The notes beneath the pieces are model-generated. The model was not told the DNA's origin. It saw nothing but the letters and a program-made list of their open reading frames with translations, and made no database searches. Made by a program: the position numbers and the translations under genes. From a virus: DNA of 21,614 nucleotides. The stretch is from positions 1 through 21,614 of the IMG/VR virus record IMGVR_UViG_3300024278_000016; one strand, given 5' to 3'. Below, in pieces: positions 3,408 to 12,995 of the stretch; positions within the stretch are counted from its first letter, which is position 1, and every line of letters begins with the position of its first letter.

Positions 3408-3441
3408 AAGCCCGCAGGCATAGCGCCTAGCGGGCTTTTTT
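3408..3441 (+). terminator. Rho-independent terminator before the fibre gene
   Basis: AAGCCCGC (3408-3415) pairs with GCGGGCTT (3430-3437). The loop contains a further AGGC/GCCT pairing, and a run of six T (3436-3441) follows. The T run is on the + strand, so it acts on rightward transcripts. It would cut off or reduce readthrough from the virion genes into the fibre gene. Confidence 0.8.
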
Positions 3442-3454
3442 GTTTGAGGTGCCC

Positions 3455-4111
3455 ATGCCTGTACCTGCATCCCTTGCTTCACTGTCCACTACCGCGGGCA
3501 GCAATCCGCCGAGTGGTGGAGAGAACCCGTTCCCTGATCTGGACGACCATTTGCGCGCTGGTTACTCGTTCGCAGCCCAAAACCGGGACGCCATCGCTGG
3601 CAAGTTGAGCGCTTCGGCTGTGTCGGCTTTCGGGCTGACGCTGATTGATGACGCAAACGCTGGCGCAGCTCGCACCACGTTGGGCGCGGTCGGCTTGACC
3701 GGCGATGAGACTGTTGCAGGCGTCAAGACCTTCAGCAGCTCACCGGTTGTCCCGGCTGCGACTACCTCTGGTCAGGCGACCAACAAGGGGCAGATGGATG
3801 CGGCCGTTGCGCTGCGCGTTGCCTTGTCTGACTTCACCGGCTCAAACCAACAGATCGCGGCCAGCGGGTTCCAAAAGTTCCCAGGTGGGCTGATCGTGCA
3901 GTGGGGCGAGGCAAGCGTCGTGTTCGACAGCTACTCCATCACATTCCCCATCACGTTCCCCAACGCTTGTTGGCAGTGCATCGGCGGATATCGCGGGATC
4001 GACTCGGTGATGGGGCAGCTCGGGAGCACATCCTTGACCACTTCAGGCGCAAGCGGGAACGCGTTCGGAACAGGCACCCAAACCCTGTACTGGATCGCCA
4101 TTGGCTACTGA
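3455..4111 (+). CDS. Tail fibre protein with gp53-like C-terminal domain
   Basis: This 218-residue protein starts at the ATG at 3455, with GAGGTG at 3446-3451; a TTG at 3440 is in frame but lies in the terminator T run. The N-terminus is low complexity and probably the virion-attachment part. Residues of about 55-110 hold the fibre phrases seen in phage tail fibres (DDANAGAARTTLGA, then ATNKGQMDAAVA). The last 75 residues match the gp53-like fibre tip: QKFPGGLIVQWG, then TFPITFPNACWQ and a final YWIAIGY. Such tips trimerise and bind the cell surface. It is followed by its own terminator and then two spike genes, so this phage carries several receptor-binding proteins. The family call is firm; the receptor is unknown. 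Confidence 0.85.
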   Translation: MPVPASLASLSTTAGSNPPSGGENPFPDLDDHLRAGYSFAAQNRDAIAGKLSASAVSAFGLTLIDDANAGAARTTLGAVGLTGDETVAGVKTFSSSPVVPAATTSGQATNKGQMDAAVALRVALSDFTGSNQQIAASGFQKFPGGLIVQWGEASVVFDSYSITFPITFPNACWQCIGGYRGIDSVMGQLGSTSLTTSGASGNAFGTGTQTLYWIAIGY

Positions 4112-4134
4112 CCCACATCTCACACAAAAAACAC

Positions 4135-4159
4135 AAGGCTCGCTTCGGCGGGCCTTTTT
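4135..4159 (+). terminator. Rho-independent terminator between fibre and deacetylase spike
   Basis: AAGGCTCGC (4135-4143) pairs with GCGGGCCTT (4148-4156) with one G-U pair. It is closed by a TTCG tetraloop and followed by TTTTT. This is a compact, stable terminator. Confidence 0.85.
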
Positions 4160-4174
4160 CATTGCTGAGGCTCT

Positions 4175-6094
4175 ATGACCATTCTCACATCTGCAAACGG
4201 CTCGCTTCCCCTGACGCTTCGCAAGGGCGAAACCTTGGTGATTCGGAACTACTCGGGGGTGGAGACTGTGACGGGTTCCATCGCTGCGCGTGAGGCAACA
4301 AAAGACGGTGCGGTTGTGTACGGCCCCCACAAGTTCGCCGCATCCGTTGTCATTACGACCACGGGAACGCTCGATTATCAAATCGTGATGGGCGATATGA
4401 CCACACCAGAGATCAGCGGTGTGTCTGTGGCGAGTTCTGGTCGCGTTCAATCTTTGACGGTGGGCGACGGCCCTGAGCTTGTCATTCAGCCGGGCAAGAA
4501 GTCAGGTTTCGGCTTCCGTGGATCGATGGGCCGCCAAATCTGCACATGGCCGTCGCTGTCTGTGGTCGCTGGCGACGCAACGCTTGTGAGCGATGTCCCG
4601 CCGATGCCAGACGGTGCTACACAGTCGGTGCGGGTGGGTCGATCTGTTGGCATCACGACTGCGCAGGCTGCTGTTGCGCTGGCTGCATACACACCGGCCA
4701 CCGGCACCTATCCATCAATCGGCATTTGGGTGAAGAACCCCGGCACGCGCCCGCTGGACTTCCGTGTGCGCCTGTGGAATGCGGCCTTCTCGCGTTCCAT
4801 CGTCTACGGTGGAAGCGCCCGCCCTGGTCGCGGCTGGGAGTTCTACACCATGAGCCCGCAGGCGACGGTGTTGTCCACTTGGACATTCGGAACCGATCAG
4901 ATCGCAGCCGTGCGCGTCGAGCAGTTTGACGCGGGCTCAAATGGTGCTTGGGTCGATGGTGAGTCGCTGATTTTTGGCGCGACCTACGCAGACATCAAGG
5001 GTCGCCCGCGCTTCCTGCTGACCTTCGACGACGTGCCGAGCAACGTCTATCGGCCCTCTCCACTCACTGCTTCGTCGCCTGTGAGTGGCCGCTCATCGAA
5101 GCAGATGATGGATTACTACGGCTTCCGTGGCACGGTGTTCCTGACGGGCAAGGTGTTCAACGCCACCAGCCAGGGTGCGACAACTTCCGACATCCTGCCC
5201 TTGCTCGATGCTGGTTGGTCTGTCGGCTCGCACTCCATGACTCACCCGGTCAACGCGGCTGGCGATGGTCTGCGCTTGCTTGGCCCGATGGGCTACAACC
5301 TCTCGCGCCAAGCGGGCAACGGCCGCAACGATTGCCGCGTCACCAGCACCACGGCGAGCACCGACACACTCACCTGCGAGGGCAACCACAACCTGAGCGT
5401 GGGCAGTCGGATTGTGTTCTACGACCAAGTTCCGACCGGCTTGCAAGCTGGCGTCACTTACTGGCCGTTCTCGGCGAGCGGCAACACCTTCAAGCTCGCA
5501 GCTACCGAATCACTCGCAAACGCAGGGACCGCCATCAACCTGACAAGCGATTGGACGGGTGCGGCTGAATATCGGTTTGCTGGCTCCGCCAACGACGACT
5601 CAGCCATCTACGCCGACATCATGGCGGGCATCGACTGGATCAGTTCATTCGGCATTCGAGGGCATGAACAGTATTTCGCGCTGCCCCAAGGCGGCTGGGA
5701 TCACTTCGTCCGCACTGCTGTTGAGCGTGCTGGCATCCGTTACACCCGAGGCATCGCAACCACTTCGGTTACCCATCGCTCGATCCACATGGGTCTGACC
5801 AACTCGGCCCGCCCGACTGGCGGAACGGTAAGCAGCTCCCCGCATTGGGCGTGCGGCTGGCCTGAACAGGCTGATGCGATTAGCACGGACAACGTGTATA
5901 GCCTGGCGCAAGCAACTGCGTATGTAGACGCCTGCATCACCAACGGCTACACCGGCGCCAACTACCACCACAACGCCAACGACACGCCCGACGTGCTCGA
6001 TGGACTGTTGGCCTACCTCAAGACCAAGAGCGATGCAGGTCTGATCGACGTCGTGACCATGTGGGACTTGGATCAGGAACTGAACTGCTGGTAA
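4175..6094 (+). CDS. Tail spike with CE4 polysaccharide deacetylase domain
   Basis: This 639-residue protein has GAGG 7 bases before the ATG. Residues 1-75 form a domain shared with the next gene and are probably the virion anchor. Residues of about 100-270 look like a beta-sandwich, perhaps carbohydrate-binding. The rest is a polysaccharide deacetylase (CE4/NodB fold). Its motif 1 is LLTFDD (281-286). Its motif 2 is GSHSMTH (351-357), giving a probable metal triad of Asp286, His353 and His357. A motif-3-like FALPQGGWD lies at 501-509 and a late histidine pair at 598-599. Between motifs 2 and 3, about residues 387-468 form an inserted module of the type found in other phage tail proteins (TDTLTCEGNHNLSVG, NTFKLAATE). 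It probably removes acetyl groups from capsule or O-antigen during adsorption. Substrate and activity are inferred. Confidence 0.85.
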   Translation: MTILTSANGSLPLTLRKGETLVIRNYSGVETVTGSIAAREATKDGAVVYGPHKFAASVVITTTGTLDYQIVMGDMTTPEISGVSVASSGRVQSLTVGDGPELVIQPGKKSGFGFRGSMGRQICTWPSLSVVAGDATLVSDVPPMPDGATQSVRVGRSVGITTAQAAVALAAYTPATGTYPSIGIWVKNPGTRPLDFRVRLWNAAFSRSIVYGGSARPGRGWEFYTMSPQATVLSTWTFGTDQIAAVRVEQFDAGSNGAWVDGESLIFGATYADIKGRPRFLLTFDDVPSNVYRPSPLTASSPVSGRSSKQMMDYYGFRGTVFLTGKVFNATSQGATTSDILPLLDAGWSVGSHSMTHPVNAAGDGLRLLGPMGYNLSRQAGNGRNDCRVTSTTASTDTLTCEGNHNLSVGSRIVFYDQVPTGLQAGVTYWPFSASGNTFKLAATESLANAGTAINLTSDWTGAAEYRFAGSANDDSAIYADIMAGIDWISSFGIRGHEQYFALPQGGWDHFVRTAVERAGIRYTRGIATTSVTHRSIHMGLTNSARPTGGTVSSSPHWACGWPEQADAISTDNVYSLAQATAYVDACITNGYTGANYHHNANDTPDVLDGLLAYLKTKSDAGLIDVVTMWDLDQELNCW

Positions 6095-6162: not shown

Positions 6163-7797
6163 ATGACCATCCTGACATCCGCGTCGGGCGCTCGTCCTTT
6201 GTCTCTGGCAAAGGGTGAGACGCTCATCATCCGCAACTATTCCGGCACGGAAACCGTAACGGGTTCGACTGCTGCAAGAGAGGATGCAAGCGCAGTCCTA
6301 GGCGCGGGTGCGGTGGCCTATGGCCCTCAGACTGGCGCGGCAACCGTCACGATCAGCACGACTGGATCGCTGGATCATTCTTCGGTCATGGGCGATCCGC
6401 TGCCCGCTGCTGACGTTCCTTCCAGCTTCGTCGCCCCAATTGACACGCCTGTCGGCTTTCGCTGGACAGGCCACCCGCTGACCCTGCGCCGCTCCGCTTC
6501 GGGCATCGTCACTGACTTTTCCATCACGGACTACATCCCGGCAATCACGAACATCTGGTACGTTGACCCGGTGAACGGCAACGATGGCACGGCGGCGGTC
6601 AACAACCGCTCGCTTCCTCTGCGCAACCTGAGTACCGCTCTGGCGAAGACCGATGTAGACCAAATCCGCATCATCAACCTGACTGGCGATTTCTTCGCCC
6701 GCACCTCGGCAGGCTGGAACAACATTCAACCTTCGCGCCCGTTGTCTGTGGTGGTTGAGTCGGGCCGGTTTGTCTCGATCAATGCCGGCTCTGCATCTCT
6801 GCCGACATGGGCGGTAAACGGCACTTACAGCAACGTCTACAGCACCACGATTTCGTCTGCCAGTGCAACGGGCGTGACCGACCTTTCCGCACGCACAGCG
6901 CACCCCGGTTTGGTGATCGCCAACAGTAAGCACACAGAGGTGCTGTCCTCTGTCGCCCGCCCGTTCCGAGTGCTCAAGAAGGTCGCCAGCCTGGCCGCTG
7001 TTTCCGCTGAGGCTGGAACCTGGTTCCACGACGGCACCCAGCTCCATGTGCGCGCCCACGATGACCGGAACTTGGTCGGCGATACGTCCATGCAGCCGAC
7101 GGCCAACACGAACAATGGCCGATTCCCCGCTGCCGTCAACAACATGAGCATCTACGTCCAAGGTGTTGACTTCGTTGGTGGCCGCCCGTTCTATGCCACG
7201 GTTGTGGAGGCATCGGCCCCAACTGGCTGCTCGCTGTACTTCAACGACTGCACGTTTCAAGGTGGCGGGCTGGCTAACGGGCTGGGCATTGAGTTCAACA
7301 TGCCCGTTTACCTGTACCGCTGCGGCGCGTTCTTCAACTGGAATGACGGCTTCAACTACCACTGCCCGACCGCTCCGGCTGCGGCTGGTGCCGCAACCTC
7401 TCCAAGCATCATTGAGGTTGAATGTCTCGCCTATGGCAATGGCACCACTGGCAGCACGGCAGCAAGTGACAACGCCAGCACGGCGCACGAGTACACCAAC
7501 GCCATCCGCCTCAATTGCGTCTATGAGGACAGCGCGGATCGCGTGCTGGTGGACATCGACAACGTGCATTCGTGGAACTTGGCGCCCTACGTCGGTCAAG
7601 CAACCACTGTCGCAGCAGGCAAGGAAAGCGTCGCCGCCCTGAACGCCTGCCGCATGTGGTTGGACTCGGCTGTGGTAATCGACGGGCAAAACCCCAAGTT
7701 TGCATCTGACTCAACGGCCATCCTGCGCCACCACGACAGCGGGCTTGCGGTCAACACGGCTGGTTACACCGGCACCGTTCGCGCCTACATCGGTTAA
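6163..7797 (+). CDS. Beta-helix tail spike sharing the N-terminal domain of the deacetylase spike
   Basis: This 544-residue protein has CGAGG before the ATG. Its first 40 residues match the previous spike at 32 positions by direct comparison (MTILTSA, KGETL, IRNYSG, ETVTGS, AARE), and similarity continues to about residue 78. From about residue 131 the pattern NIWYVDPVNGNDGT followed by PLRNLSTAL is the usual entry to a right-handed parallel beta-helix. The following 350 residues are Asn/Gly/Thr/Val-rich, as in pectate-lyase-like spikes. No catalytic residues can be assigned by eye. It is likely a second receptor-binding or depolymerising spike docking at the same kind of virion site as its neighbour. 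Confidence 0.8.
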   Translation: MTILTSASGARPLSLAKGETLIIRNYSGTETVTGSTAAREDASAVLGAGAVAYGPQTGAATVTISTTGSLDHSSVMGDPLPAADVPSSFVAPIDTPVGFRWTGHPLTLRRSASGIVTDFSITDYIPAITNIWYVDPVNGNDGTAAVNNRSLPLRNLSTALAKTDVDQIRIINLTGDFFARTSAGWNNIQPSRPLSVVVESGRFVSINAGSASLPTWAVNGTYSNVYSTTISSASATGVTDLSARTAHPGLVIANSKHTEVLSSVARPFRVLKKVASLAAVSAEAGTWFHDGTQLHVRAHDDRNLVGDTSMQPTANTNNGRFPAAVNNMSIYVQGVDFVGGRPFYATVVEASAPTGCSLYFNDCTFQGGGLANGLGIEFNMPVYLYRCGAFFNWNDGFNYHCPTAPAAAGAATSPSIIEVECLAYGNGTTGSTAASDNASTAHEYTNAIRLNCVYEDSADRVLVDIDNVHSWNLAPYVGQATTVAAGKESVAALNACRMWLDSAVVIDGQNPKFASDSTAILRHHDSGLAVNTAGYTGTVRAYIG

Positions 7798-7825: not shown

Positions 7826-8248
7826 ATGGACAGTCAAATGGAACTCGGAACGGCAGCCGCAAGCGCGGCGGGTATGGCAGCAGCGAAGGGCGCAGGCGGT
7901 GCGGCGCTCGGTGGCGCTGTCGTCGGCGGCCTGACCCTCTCGGCCCTGGTGGTGATGCTGCTCAAGCAGCCGCGCACATCAAGGGAGTGGGCTGTGGCGC
8001 TGATCTCGACGCTGGCGTGCTCGCTTGGCCTCGGCGGCTGGCTGGTGATCTACCTGGGGTTCAACACACACGCGGCATCGGCTGATCCGGTGGTGGCCTG
8101 GTTTGGCCTGCTGGAGATCGGTGGGACCATCTTTGCGGCTGGCTTGCCTGGGTGGGTGTTGGTGCGCATCGCGTTCAACACGATGGGCAAGTATCAGGAC
8201 AAGTCGGCCACTGACGTTTACAAGGACGTGAAGGGGATGCTGCCGTGA
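7826..8248 (+). CDS. Probable three-helix holin
   Basis: This 140-residue protein starts at the ATG at 7826; an in-frame ATG at 7838 could be a second, shorter start, as some holin genes use two. Three hydrophobic segments are visible at about residues 27-46, 54-78 and 89-117. A Gly/Ala-rich N-terminus precedes them and a charged, soluble C-terminal tail follows. Its stop overlaps the GTG start of the endolysin by four bases (GTGA), and spanin genes come next. Holins of this layout form the inner-membrane lesion that lets endolysin reach the wall. No obvious ribosome site precedes 7826; GGAC precedes 7838. The holin call rests on topology and position. Confidence 0.75.
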   Translation: MDSQMELGTAAASAAGMAAAKGAGGAALGGAVVGGLTLSALVVMLLKQPRTSREWAVALISTLACSLGLGGWLVIYLGFNTHAASADPVVAWFGLLEIGGTIFAAGLPGWVLVRIAFNTMGKYQDKSATDVYKDVKGMLP

Positions 8249-8652
8249 CGCTGGACGAACGCAGCGAGAAGCGCTTAGAGGGTGTGAATCCAACCCTCGT
8301 GAGCATCGTGAGAAGGGCAGCCAAACGGCTGCCTTTTTCTTTGTTCGTCGTGGAAGGGCTGCGTACCAAGGAGCGCCAAGCCGCGCTCTACGCGCAGGGG
8401 CGCACCAAGCCTGGGCCAAAGGTCACTTGGACGATGAACTCCAAGCACATCGATGGGAAGGCGGTAGACCTTGCCCCGCTCATTGATGGCGTCATCGACT
8501 GGAAAGACTTGAAGAAGTTCGACCAGATCGGCAAGGCCATGATCGAGGCGGGCAAAGAGGTCGGCGTCCTCGTCCGATGGGGGGCCGATTGGGACATGGA
8601 CGGTTTGCCGCGTGAGCGTGGCGAGTCCGACTCCCCGCACTTCGAGATATGA
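8245..8652 (+). CDS. Endolysin, M15-family L-alanyl-D-glutamate peptidase
   Basis: This 135-residue protein starts with GTG inside the holin stop codon. The M15 metallopeptidase pattern is clear: SKHIDGKAVDL gives zinc ligands His68 and Asp75, and DSPHFE near the end gives catalytic-type Asp129 and zinc ligand His132. This is the same arrangement as the phage T5 endolysin (His66, Asp73, Asp130, His133), which cuts the L-Ala-D-Glu bond of peptidoglycan stem peptides. The upstream EGLRTKERQAALYAQGRT is the usual substrate-side helix. There is no signal peptide, so it needs the holin. The ATG of Rz overlaps its stop. Confidence 0.92.
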   Translation: MTLDERSEKRLEGVNPTLVSIVRRAAKRLPFSLFVVEGLRTKERQAALYAQGRTKPGPKVTWTMNSKHIDGKAVDLAPLIDGVIDWKDLKKFDQIGKAMIEAGKEVGVLVRWGADWDMDGLPRERGESDSPHFEI

Positions 8653-8975
8653 CCCCCTACCTCATCGCAGGCGCTGCGCTCATCTCTGCCGCTGCCGGGT
8701 TCTATGGCGGGTGGACGATCAAGCAAGGGCAGTGGGACGCGGCAACCGTGGCCGCACATACCGAGCGGGAAGCAGCCCTATCGACCATTGCAGAGTCGAT
8801 CCAAAAGATCGATGTCAAGCAGCAGACCATCCGAGAAAGGGTGATCCGTGAAACCGTTGAAAAGCCTGTGTATCGCGACTGTCGCCATGAGCCTGACAGC
8901 TTGCGCGACATCAACGCAGCCCTCAGTGTCTCCGCTGGTGCAGGCGATGTGCCCGCCTCTGACGCCGCTCGATGA
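8649..8975 (+). CDS. Rz: Rz-like inner-membrane spanin
   Basis: This 108-residue protein has its ATG overlapping the endolysin stop by four bases. One N-terminal transmembrane segment lies at about residues 4-22 (YLIAGAALISAAAGFYGGW). A helical, charged periplasmic region follows (about 25-70), then a tail with an RDCRHEPDSLRDINAAL motif typical of Rz proteins. The i-spanin pairs with the lipoprotein Rz1 across the periplasm to fuse the two membranes in the last step of lysis. Rz1 starts inside this gene in another frame and supports the assignment. Confidence 0.9.
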   Translation: MTPYLIAGAALISAAAGFYGGWTIKQGQWDAATVAAHTEREAALSTIAESIQKIDVKQQTIRERVIRETVEKPVYRDCRHEPDSLRDINAALSVSAGAGDVPASDAAR

Positions 8976-11871: not shown

Positions 11872-12840
11872 CTAGCCATGGTGTAAACGCTGGTGCATTT
11901 CTCCCAGCTTTTCCAACGCCTCGCGCTGTGGTGCAACCTGGGTGTGAGCGTATCGCTCCGTGGTTTTAACCGTCGTGTGGCCGAGGATGTCGCGCACCAC
12001 GTGCAGTGGCACGCCGTGGCCTAACAGGATCGTGGCGCACGAATGCCTGAGGTCATGAAAATGGACGTGCTCCATCTTCGCCGCCTCTCTGGCCCGCCTG
12101 AATCCCGTCTTGACGCCTTCGAAGTTGATCGGCAAGGGCAGGTAAGCCAGCCACGGGCGCAAGGCCGGGACAATCGGCACCTCTCGATATCGCAAGGTCT
12201 TGGTGTTGCCAGCCTGTAGGCGGATCGTGTCGGCGCCAATGTCGGCCTTCTCGATCTTGCACACCTCACCACGCCTGCACCCGGTCAGCAGGGCAATCCA
12301 GATCGCGGCGCGCACGTTCTCGCTCGCGTGGTCGGCCAGTTCCTTGACCTGCTCCATGCTCAGGTAAACCGTGCGCTTGTTGTTCTCCGGCAGGCGCTTG
12401 ACCAAGCTGGAGTAATCGACCGGCGTGCGGCCTTCGTGCCAAGCGATAGACAGCCCTTTTTGAAGCGCCCCAAGGCTGCGATTGATCGTGGCCGGCGCGT
12501 AGTGGCCCGTCATGTCCTTGATGATGTGCCGAACCGCCTCCTTGGTCTGTGAGGCCCGGTAACGCTCCACCCATTGCCCGATCCGCACCGCGTGGTGCTT
12601 GGCCGTCTCAGGGCTGCGCAGCGTGGCGGTGTGGGCAATGTAGAGCGTCATGATCTCGCTCAGTCCTGGGTCACCAGGGATAACCGGCGCTCGGTTTCGG
12701 CTGAGTGCTGCTCTGAGTTCGGCTTCGACTCGCTTGGCCTCACCCTTAGATGTGCCCGGCGGCAAGCGTCGGTGAACGCGTTGACGGCTGACGCAGACAC
12801 TGATTTCGAAGCCGCCTGCTTTTGTTTGTTTGATAGGCAT
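11872..12840 (-). CDS. int: Tyrosine-family site-specific integrase
   Basis: This 322-residue protein starts at the ATG at 12840; the upstream GTG at 12870 has no ribosome site. The N-terminus (VCVSRQRVHRRLPPGTS) looks like the arm-binding domain, residues of about 55-145 are the core-binding domain, and 155-322 the catalytic domain. The active set is complete: Arg189 (TGCRRGE), Lys214 (NTKTLR), His262 and Arg265 (HDLRHS), His288 (LGHTT) and the nucleophile Tyr297 (TERYAH). It should insert the phage at tRNA-Val using the adjacent core. Its first 181 bases are also read in another frame by the excisionase-like gene upstream, so expression of the two is linked. It lies at the far end of the early operon. 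Confidence 0.95.
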   Translation of the reverse strand: MPIKQTKAGGFEISVCVSRQRVHRRLPPGTSKGEAKRVEAELRAALSRNRAPVIPGDPGLSEIMTLYIAHTATLRSPETAKHHAVRIGQWVERYRASQTKEAVRHIIKDMTGHYAPATINRSLGALQKGLSIAWHEGRTPVDYSSLVKRLPENNKRTVYLSMEQVKELADHASENVRAAIWIALLTGCRRGEVCKIEKADIGADTIRLQAGNTKTLRYREVPIVPALRPWLAYLPLPINFEGVKTGFRRAREAAKMEHVHFHDLRHSCATILLGHGVPLHVVRDILGHTTVKTTERYAHTQVAPQREALEKLGEMHQRLHHG

Positions 12841-12995
12841 GTGTGGTTCTCTCTGAGCCAGGCTTTGCACTGTTCAAGGTCGTATCGCTTGCCGCGAGCC
12901 CCGACCGGCTGGAATGGCATTCCGTCAGCCGTGAGACGCTGGACTTGGCGCTCGCTGATTCTGAGCGCGGTTGCTAGTTCGCTCGGGGTCAGCAT
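12660..12995 (-). CDS. Excisionase-like helix-turn-helix DNA-binding protein, overlapping int
   Basis: This 111-residue protein uses the ATG at 12995 with AAGGAG 6 bases upstream. Residues 1-50 hold a MerR/excisionase-type winged helix: LTPSELATALRISERQVQRL, then PVGARGKRYDLEQCKAWLRE. The rest is polar and runs 181 bases into int in another frame. A small DNA-binding gene directly before int is the usual place of xis, which steers the integrase to excision. The long tail could be functional or simply lack a stop; it reads protein-like (NAFTDACRRAHLRVRPSES). It could also be a regulator of int. Confidence 0.75.
   Translation of the reverse strand: MLTPSELATALRISERQVQRLTADGMPFQPVGARGKRYDLEQCKAWLRENHTCLSNKQKQAASKSVSASAVNAFTDACRRAHLRVRPSESKPNSEQHSAETERRLSLVTQD

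Follow-up and report, generated by a model that had tools for sequence, protein, structure and literature searches.

A probable phage tail-spike protein with a predicted jelly roll and a CE4/NodB domain that carries an inserted beta module

Deacetylation by phage spikes is proven for Aristophanes gp41 (PMC8471582) and for Possum gp66 and G7C gp63.1 (PMC9569702), all of SGNH fold, and SGNH proteins of Klebsiella prophages, acting as receptor-binding proteins, are active esterases (PMC13123978). These tail proteins either deacetylate a glycan of the host surface or have esterase activity; they differ from the protein described here in fold and chemistry, being SGNH hydrolases rather than metal-dependent CE4 enzymes. 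A second precedent is the turret hub protein gp31 of Haloferax tailed virus 1 (HFTV1; PDB 8qpg), an archaeal virus that carries it on its capsid turret: the protein has Zn sites and galactose-binding-like and deacetylase-like domains, and glycan degradation has been proposed for it (PMC12494034). Gordonia phage Lton gp25 and similar actinophage proteins, annotated as minor tail proteins, have a borderline PF01522 match, and their similarity to the present family is weak and limited to a single homologue (L006). Cellular enzymes such as 3rxz, 7ax7, 2cc0 and 4nz1 (a Vibrio chitin de-N-acetylase) have the same CE4 barrel, without the insert or the phage anchor described below. No direct precedent for CE4 enzymes in phage tails, or for an FCCH module in phages, was found in a literature search that left most subscription papers outside. 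The first-pass annotation of this locus had set a deacetylase spike apart from most described spike enzymes, which cut glycan chains; that contrast is weakened by the established SGNH spikes and by the solved virion CE4 protein of HFTV1, with its identical domain layout.

The window, the whole stretch of DNA analysed, is an IMG/VR virus contig of 21,614 bases, classed as a linear sequence that may be a fragment. The gene of interest is an open frame throughout (639 amino acids). Its parts and its closest neighbours are:

3440-4111, Gp53-like tail fibre gene (Pfam and PHROG profile searches)
4175..6094, + strand, whole ORF, jelly roll plus CE4 protein of tail-spike type, 639 aa
4175..4402, + strand, anchor-like N-terminal segment, residues 1-76, common to the next ORF (identity to 6163-6402)
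4523..4999, + strand, carbohydrate-binding-module-like jelly roll, residues 117-275 (predicted structure match)
5000..5296, + strand, CE4/NodB domain part 1, residues 276-374 (PF01522)
5027..5032, + strand, D285-D286 of motif 1 (T283-F-D285-D286), expected base and expected metal ligand, respectively
5231..5245, + strand, motif 2 (H353-S-M-T-H357), expected metal ligands
5297..5584, + strand, E1-FCCH-like beta module with linkers, residues 375-470 (missing in L006 and L010; profile hits elsewhere)
5585..6091, + strand, CE4/NodB domain part 2, residues 471-639 (alignment and structure match)
5678..5692, + strand, motif 3 region (A502-L-P-Q-G506)
5960..5971, + strand, motif 5 region (N596-Y-H598-H599)
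6163..7797, + strand, tail-fibre-like ORF whose anchor is the same and whose C-terminal part differs (phrog_32409, tail fiber protein, E 3.3e-26)
8245-8652, M15-type endolysin (Pfam and PHROG profile searches)
8649-8975, Rz-like spanin (Pfam and PHROG profile searches)

The CE4 ORF is thus surrounded by tail-fibre, endolysin and spanin genes, and an exonuclease gene is also among its neighbours. The gap separating the Gp53-like gene from the CE4 gene holds a GC-rich hairpin-like sequence with a T-run after it (4134-4165), which may be a terminator. An ORF on the minus strand (11872-12870) looks on inspection like a tyrosine recombinase/integrase, suggesting a temperate phage. No PHROG or NCBIfam family matched the CE4 protein, and PDB sequence searches, single and profile, gave chance matches only. 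Direct scans of IMG/VR with the protein sequence, and of genome contigs with that of the CE4 region, returned no relatives; alignment queries were needed in both cases.

The only Pfam domain found in the protein is PF01522 (Polysacc_deac_1; residues 277-358, E 1.1e-7), with a score of 32.2 bits, above the curated Pfam cut-off of 23.1. Motif 1 (TFDD) and motif 2, H(S/T)xxH, supply D285, D286, H353 and H357; in keeping with established CE4 knowledge, we take D285 to be the base and the other three to be the metal ligands. Motif 3 departs from the canonical RxP(Y/F)G: Pro and Gly are kept, the aromatic residue is absent and Ala502 stands in place of Arg, so that the motif set is not fully canonical. 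Motif 4 (DxxDW) was not found in the window protein; the pair T571-D572 is kept in the alignment of homologues. Toward the C-terminus, the sequence N596-Y-H598-H599 is a candidate for motif 5 with its catalytic His; YHH is kept in all eight homologues that are complete up to that point, and aligns with YFH in the HFTV1 protein.

Structure prediction gave a CE4/NodB fold, with Z scores of 14-16 against solved CE4 enzymes; AlphaFold models matched 3rxz with Z 18.0 over 223 residues and 7ax7 with Z 15.6 (rmsd 2.5, 181 residues), and the structural matches include chitin deacetylases. Confidence in the better model is moderate (mean pLDDT 70, pTM 0.67, nine sequences). An SGNH fold for this protein is ruled out, fold and family match both being CE4. 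Several claims of the first-pass annotation are borne out by these results, among them the CE4 domain itself and an intact Asp-His-His set, now located as D286, H353 and H357 in motifs 1 and 2. Its description of the enzyme as sitting on a phage anchor needs amendment: both parts are present, but a jelly roll that it had not recognized intervenes. According to the models, residues 117-275, between anchor and enzyme, are a jelly roll resembling carbohydrate-binding modules (Z 12.5 against CBM11 and 11.6 against CBM36; VIA-align, AlphaFold models), with pLDDT mostly 70-87 in its strands.

Jelly roll and CE4 domain together have the HFTV1 turret protein as their top solved-structure match (Z 20.9 and 19.3 for two models; Foldseek E 2.5e-14). 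As in the window protein, a jelly roll is followed by CE4 in one chain with DD and HxxxH (motifs TIDD and HGYNH), and motif 3 (VYPSG) is without Arg; the inserted module is absent. Profile-profile comparison with gp31 was not significant, motif 1 being misaligned, so that the relation rests on structure. The next viral matches among predicted structures include gp673 of Bacillus phage G, a protein of Arthrobacter phage Qui named "esterase" and a putative myovirus polysaccharide deacetylase; together with the HFTV1 match, they indicate that CE4 proteins of virion type recur.

Between GP.GY and (A/T)NDD, the window protein has 96 residues where L006 and L010, which are 44-47% identical to it in the CE4 domain, have 10, substantiating the earlier proposal of a beta module inserted between motifs 2 and 3. 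The GC content of the insert (61.8%) matches its flanks, and an insert at the same site is found in several other contigs: an assembly error is thereby excluded and there is no sign of recent arrival, a recent insertion being rejected for want of any GC break. Only one module, at this site, is present in the window protein, in a Massilia terrae homologue (L011), in Curvibacter phage P26059A and in L007 and L030. In L028 and L036, a second is found between motif 1 and a YGF helix, matching the module profile at E 8e-18 in L028. The second copy of L036 is more diverged: its E of 1.9e-4, above all 500 shuffles, came from a profile that included the corresponding L028 copy, the first-pass profile having done no better than shuffle.

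The module is likely to be a widespread E1-FCCH-like repeat. Its profile matches repeats in open frames of 4000-5500 codons in other Burkholderiales genomes, and also a Phage-tail_3 protein. This likely name comes from one such giant ORF carrying module repeats (L017), which matches PF16190 (E1_FCCH) with E 1.2e-12 over the whole protein, the best stretch overlapping the insert-profile match; the window protein itself gave no PF16190 match up to E 1. Open frames in this Burkholderiales group (L017-L022) range from about 940 to 5500 codons, those of 4000-5500 codons having several module repeats. Sheath, baseplate and minor tail proteins of unrelated phages also match the insert weakly, at E 0.06 or worse.

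DSSP assignment of the better model (construct numbering) gives the order beta3 (E233-236), insert strands (272-352), helix (360-374), placing the module in the beta3-alpha3 loop; beta3 is the strand that precedes motif 2 (H353/H357). In L028 and L036, the second site falls after motif 1 (D285/D286), with which beta1 ends, and before alpha1. Barrels of this kind have a catalytic face formed by the beta-alpha loops; judging from topology, both module sites should flank the metal. The loop position and the site of the second copy in two relatives are consistent with a module that widens the surface near the active site.

The homologue set comprises nine distinct sequences (the window protein, L006, L010, L011, L028, L036, P26059A, L007 and L030). 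The first six of these keep DD and HxxxH, with YHH in all five that are complete. In the other three, DD and YHH are kept and the positions of H353 and H357 are occupied by Q and D (QTHND, QTYQD and QSYYD); PF01522 gives no match to any of them. They form one well-supported clade in a tree of the cores, which otherwise resolves only the L006/L010 pair, so that the order of insert gain and loss cannot be derived from it. The P26059A protein (ASJ79271.1) and its two clade members share the jelly roll, CE4-like domain and insert site with the window protein at 27-30% identity; their anchor is unrelated. With both metal histidines lost in this clade, some phages evidently put the fold to use with no standard metal site, and the identical Q/D replacement in all three suggests a constrained new role, perhaps binding. 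Elsewhere, an unannotated phage protein (L038 247-2178, LT985570) has a CE4-like domain with FDN as motif 1 and no His in motif 2, and is a possible pseudoenzyme.

At the N-terminus, residues 1-76 match the opening of the next ORF (6163-6402) at 67% identity, the basis for regarding them as a common virion anchor; this segment has low model confidence and no matches in the phage collection searched. The CE4 protein and the 6163-7797 product may be two spikes sharing one attachment site. In phages related to Curvibacter P26059A, another anchor, MPKTIKEVY..DY.G, precedes differing C-terminal domains: CE4-like and beta-helix-like in L004 (371-2239 and 2892-4850), and in L005 (5001-6353 and 7035-8381) SGNH-like hydrolase, by its GDSLTHG motif. 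L005 also has an extra copy of the anchor just upstream of, and in a different frame from, an ORF that matches CE4 weakly (PF01522, E 0.00048).

Our preferred reading, which we consider probable, is that the protein is a spike or fibre of a tailed phage whose jelly roll binds, and whose CE4 domain deacetylates, a host surface glycan. The domains, the insert, the conserved motifs, the fold similarity and the common anchor are observed; virion location, activity and substrate and the role of the insert are what we infer. The N-terminus would fix the protein to the virion and the CBM-like jelly roll would bind the glycan, from which the C-terminal CE4/NodB barrel, with metal held by D286, H353 and H357 and D285 as base, would remove acetyl groups; the beta module, placed on the catalytic side by its beta3-alpha3 loop position, would shape or extend the glycan-binding surface. 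Metal-dependent deacetylation is the most likely function, and shaping of the binding surface the most likely role of the insert.

One alternative is a receptor-binding protein in which CE4 catalysis is marginal or gone, the domain acting as a lectin-like support for jelly roll and module. The three Q/D homologues, all insert-bearing, and LT985570 speak for this reading, and the window protein itself lacks the motif-3 Arg; but loss of that Arg need not mean inactivity, since the Zn-bearing HFTV1 protein is also without it, and the window protein and all its closer relatives keep D285, D286, H353, H357 and H598/H599. We therefore regard a non-catalytic window protein as unlikely, at perhaps one chance in several. 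If the deacetylation expected of the spike does occur, its substrate could also be peptidoglycan or a secreted exopolysaccharide (e.g., poly-N-acetylglucosamine) rather than capsule or O-antigen, helping the phage to enter the wall locally or to pass through a biofilm. N-deacetylation of chitin-like or peptidoglycan chains is known for many CE4 enzymes, and the structural matches to chitin deacetylases favor such a substrate; the fold does not reveal the substrate, however, and the combination of a common tail anchor with a CBM-like domain in a spike favors a glycan of the outer surface, making this second alternative improbable.

A third possibility is that the gene is a moron, borne by a prophage and encoding a secreted deacetylase of host type that is no part of the virion. 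The Massilia terrae chromosome (L011 5338-7128) encodes a protein with the same jelly roll, CE4 domain and insert, among chemotaxis, GntR-family and glycosyltransferase genes in a non-phage context; its N-terminus (MVTRREVLILGAATACLPACGGGGG) reads, by inspection, as the signal of a probable lipoprotein. This homologue means that the jelly roll plus CE4 unit alone is no proof of a virion protein. In samples of 393, 399 and 398 genomes (family, order and phylum, respectively) around Massilia terrae, the full architecture was found in that species only, the remaining matches being short, partial and mostly to the module alone. Inspection shows no evident signal peptide in the window protein, whose N-terminus recurs in the next, tail-fibre-like ORF and whose gene lies between tail-fibre and lysis genes, all of which make a moron origin very improbable.

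A more speculative extension, which we put forward as possible but doubtful, combines the two kinds of variation in the family. The module would be a transferable specificity cassette, entering or being duplicated between two active-site loops of the CE4 domain (0, 1 or 2 copies), and the Q/D clade would have turned into a glycan binder after a fixed loss of its metal histidines, H to Q and H to D.

Virion CE4 proteins were already known, and phage deacetylase spikes of SGNH fold proven. What appears to be new is a small family of homologues with 0, 1 or 2 copies of a module at two beta-alpha loops predicted to lie on the catalytic face, a clade within it in which both metal histidines are replaced, and a lipoprotein-like chromosomal homologue in Massilia terrae. 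Judging from the match with the turret protein of an archaeal virus, a jelly roll joined to CE4 seems to be an arrangement that recurs in virions. Removal of acetyl groups instead of chain cleavage is a recognized means by which phages reach the host, the enzymes described in tails being SGNH esterases; the CE4 relatives described here, varying in both insert number and catalytic residues, form a natural comparison set for the role of the insert and for the question of whether the fold can serve as a pure binder.
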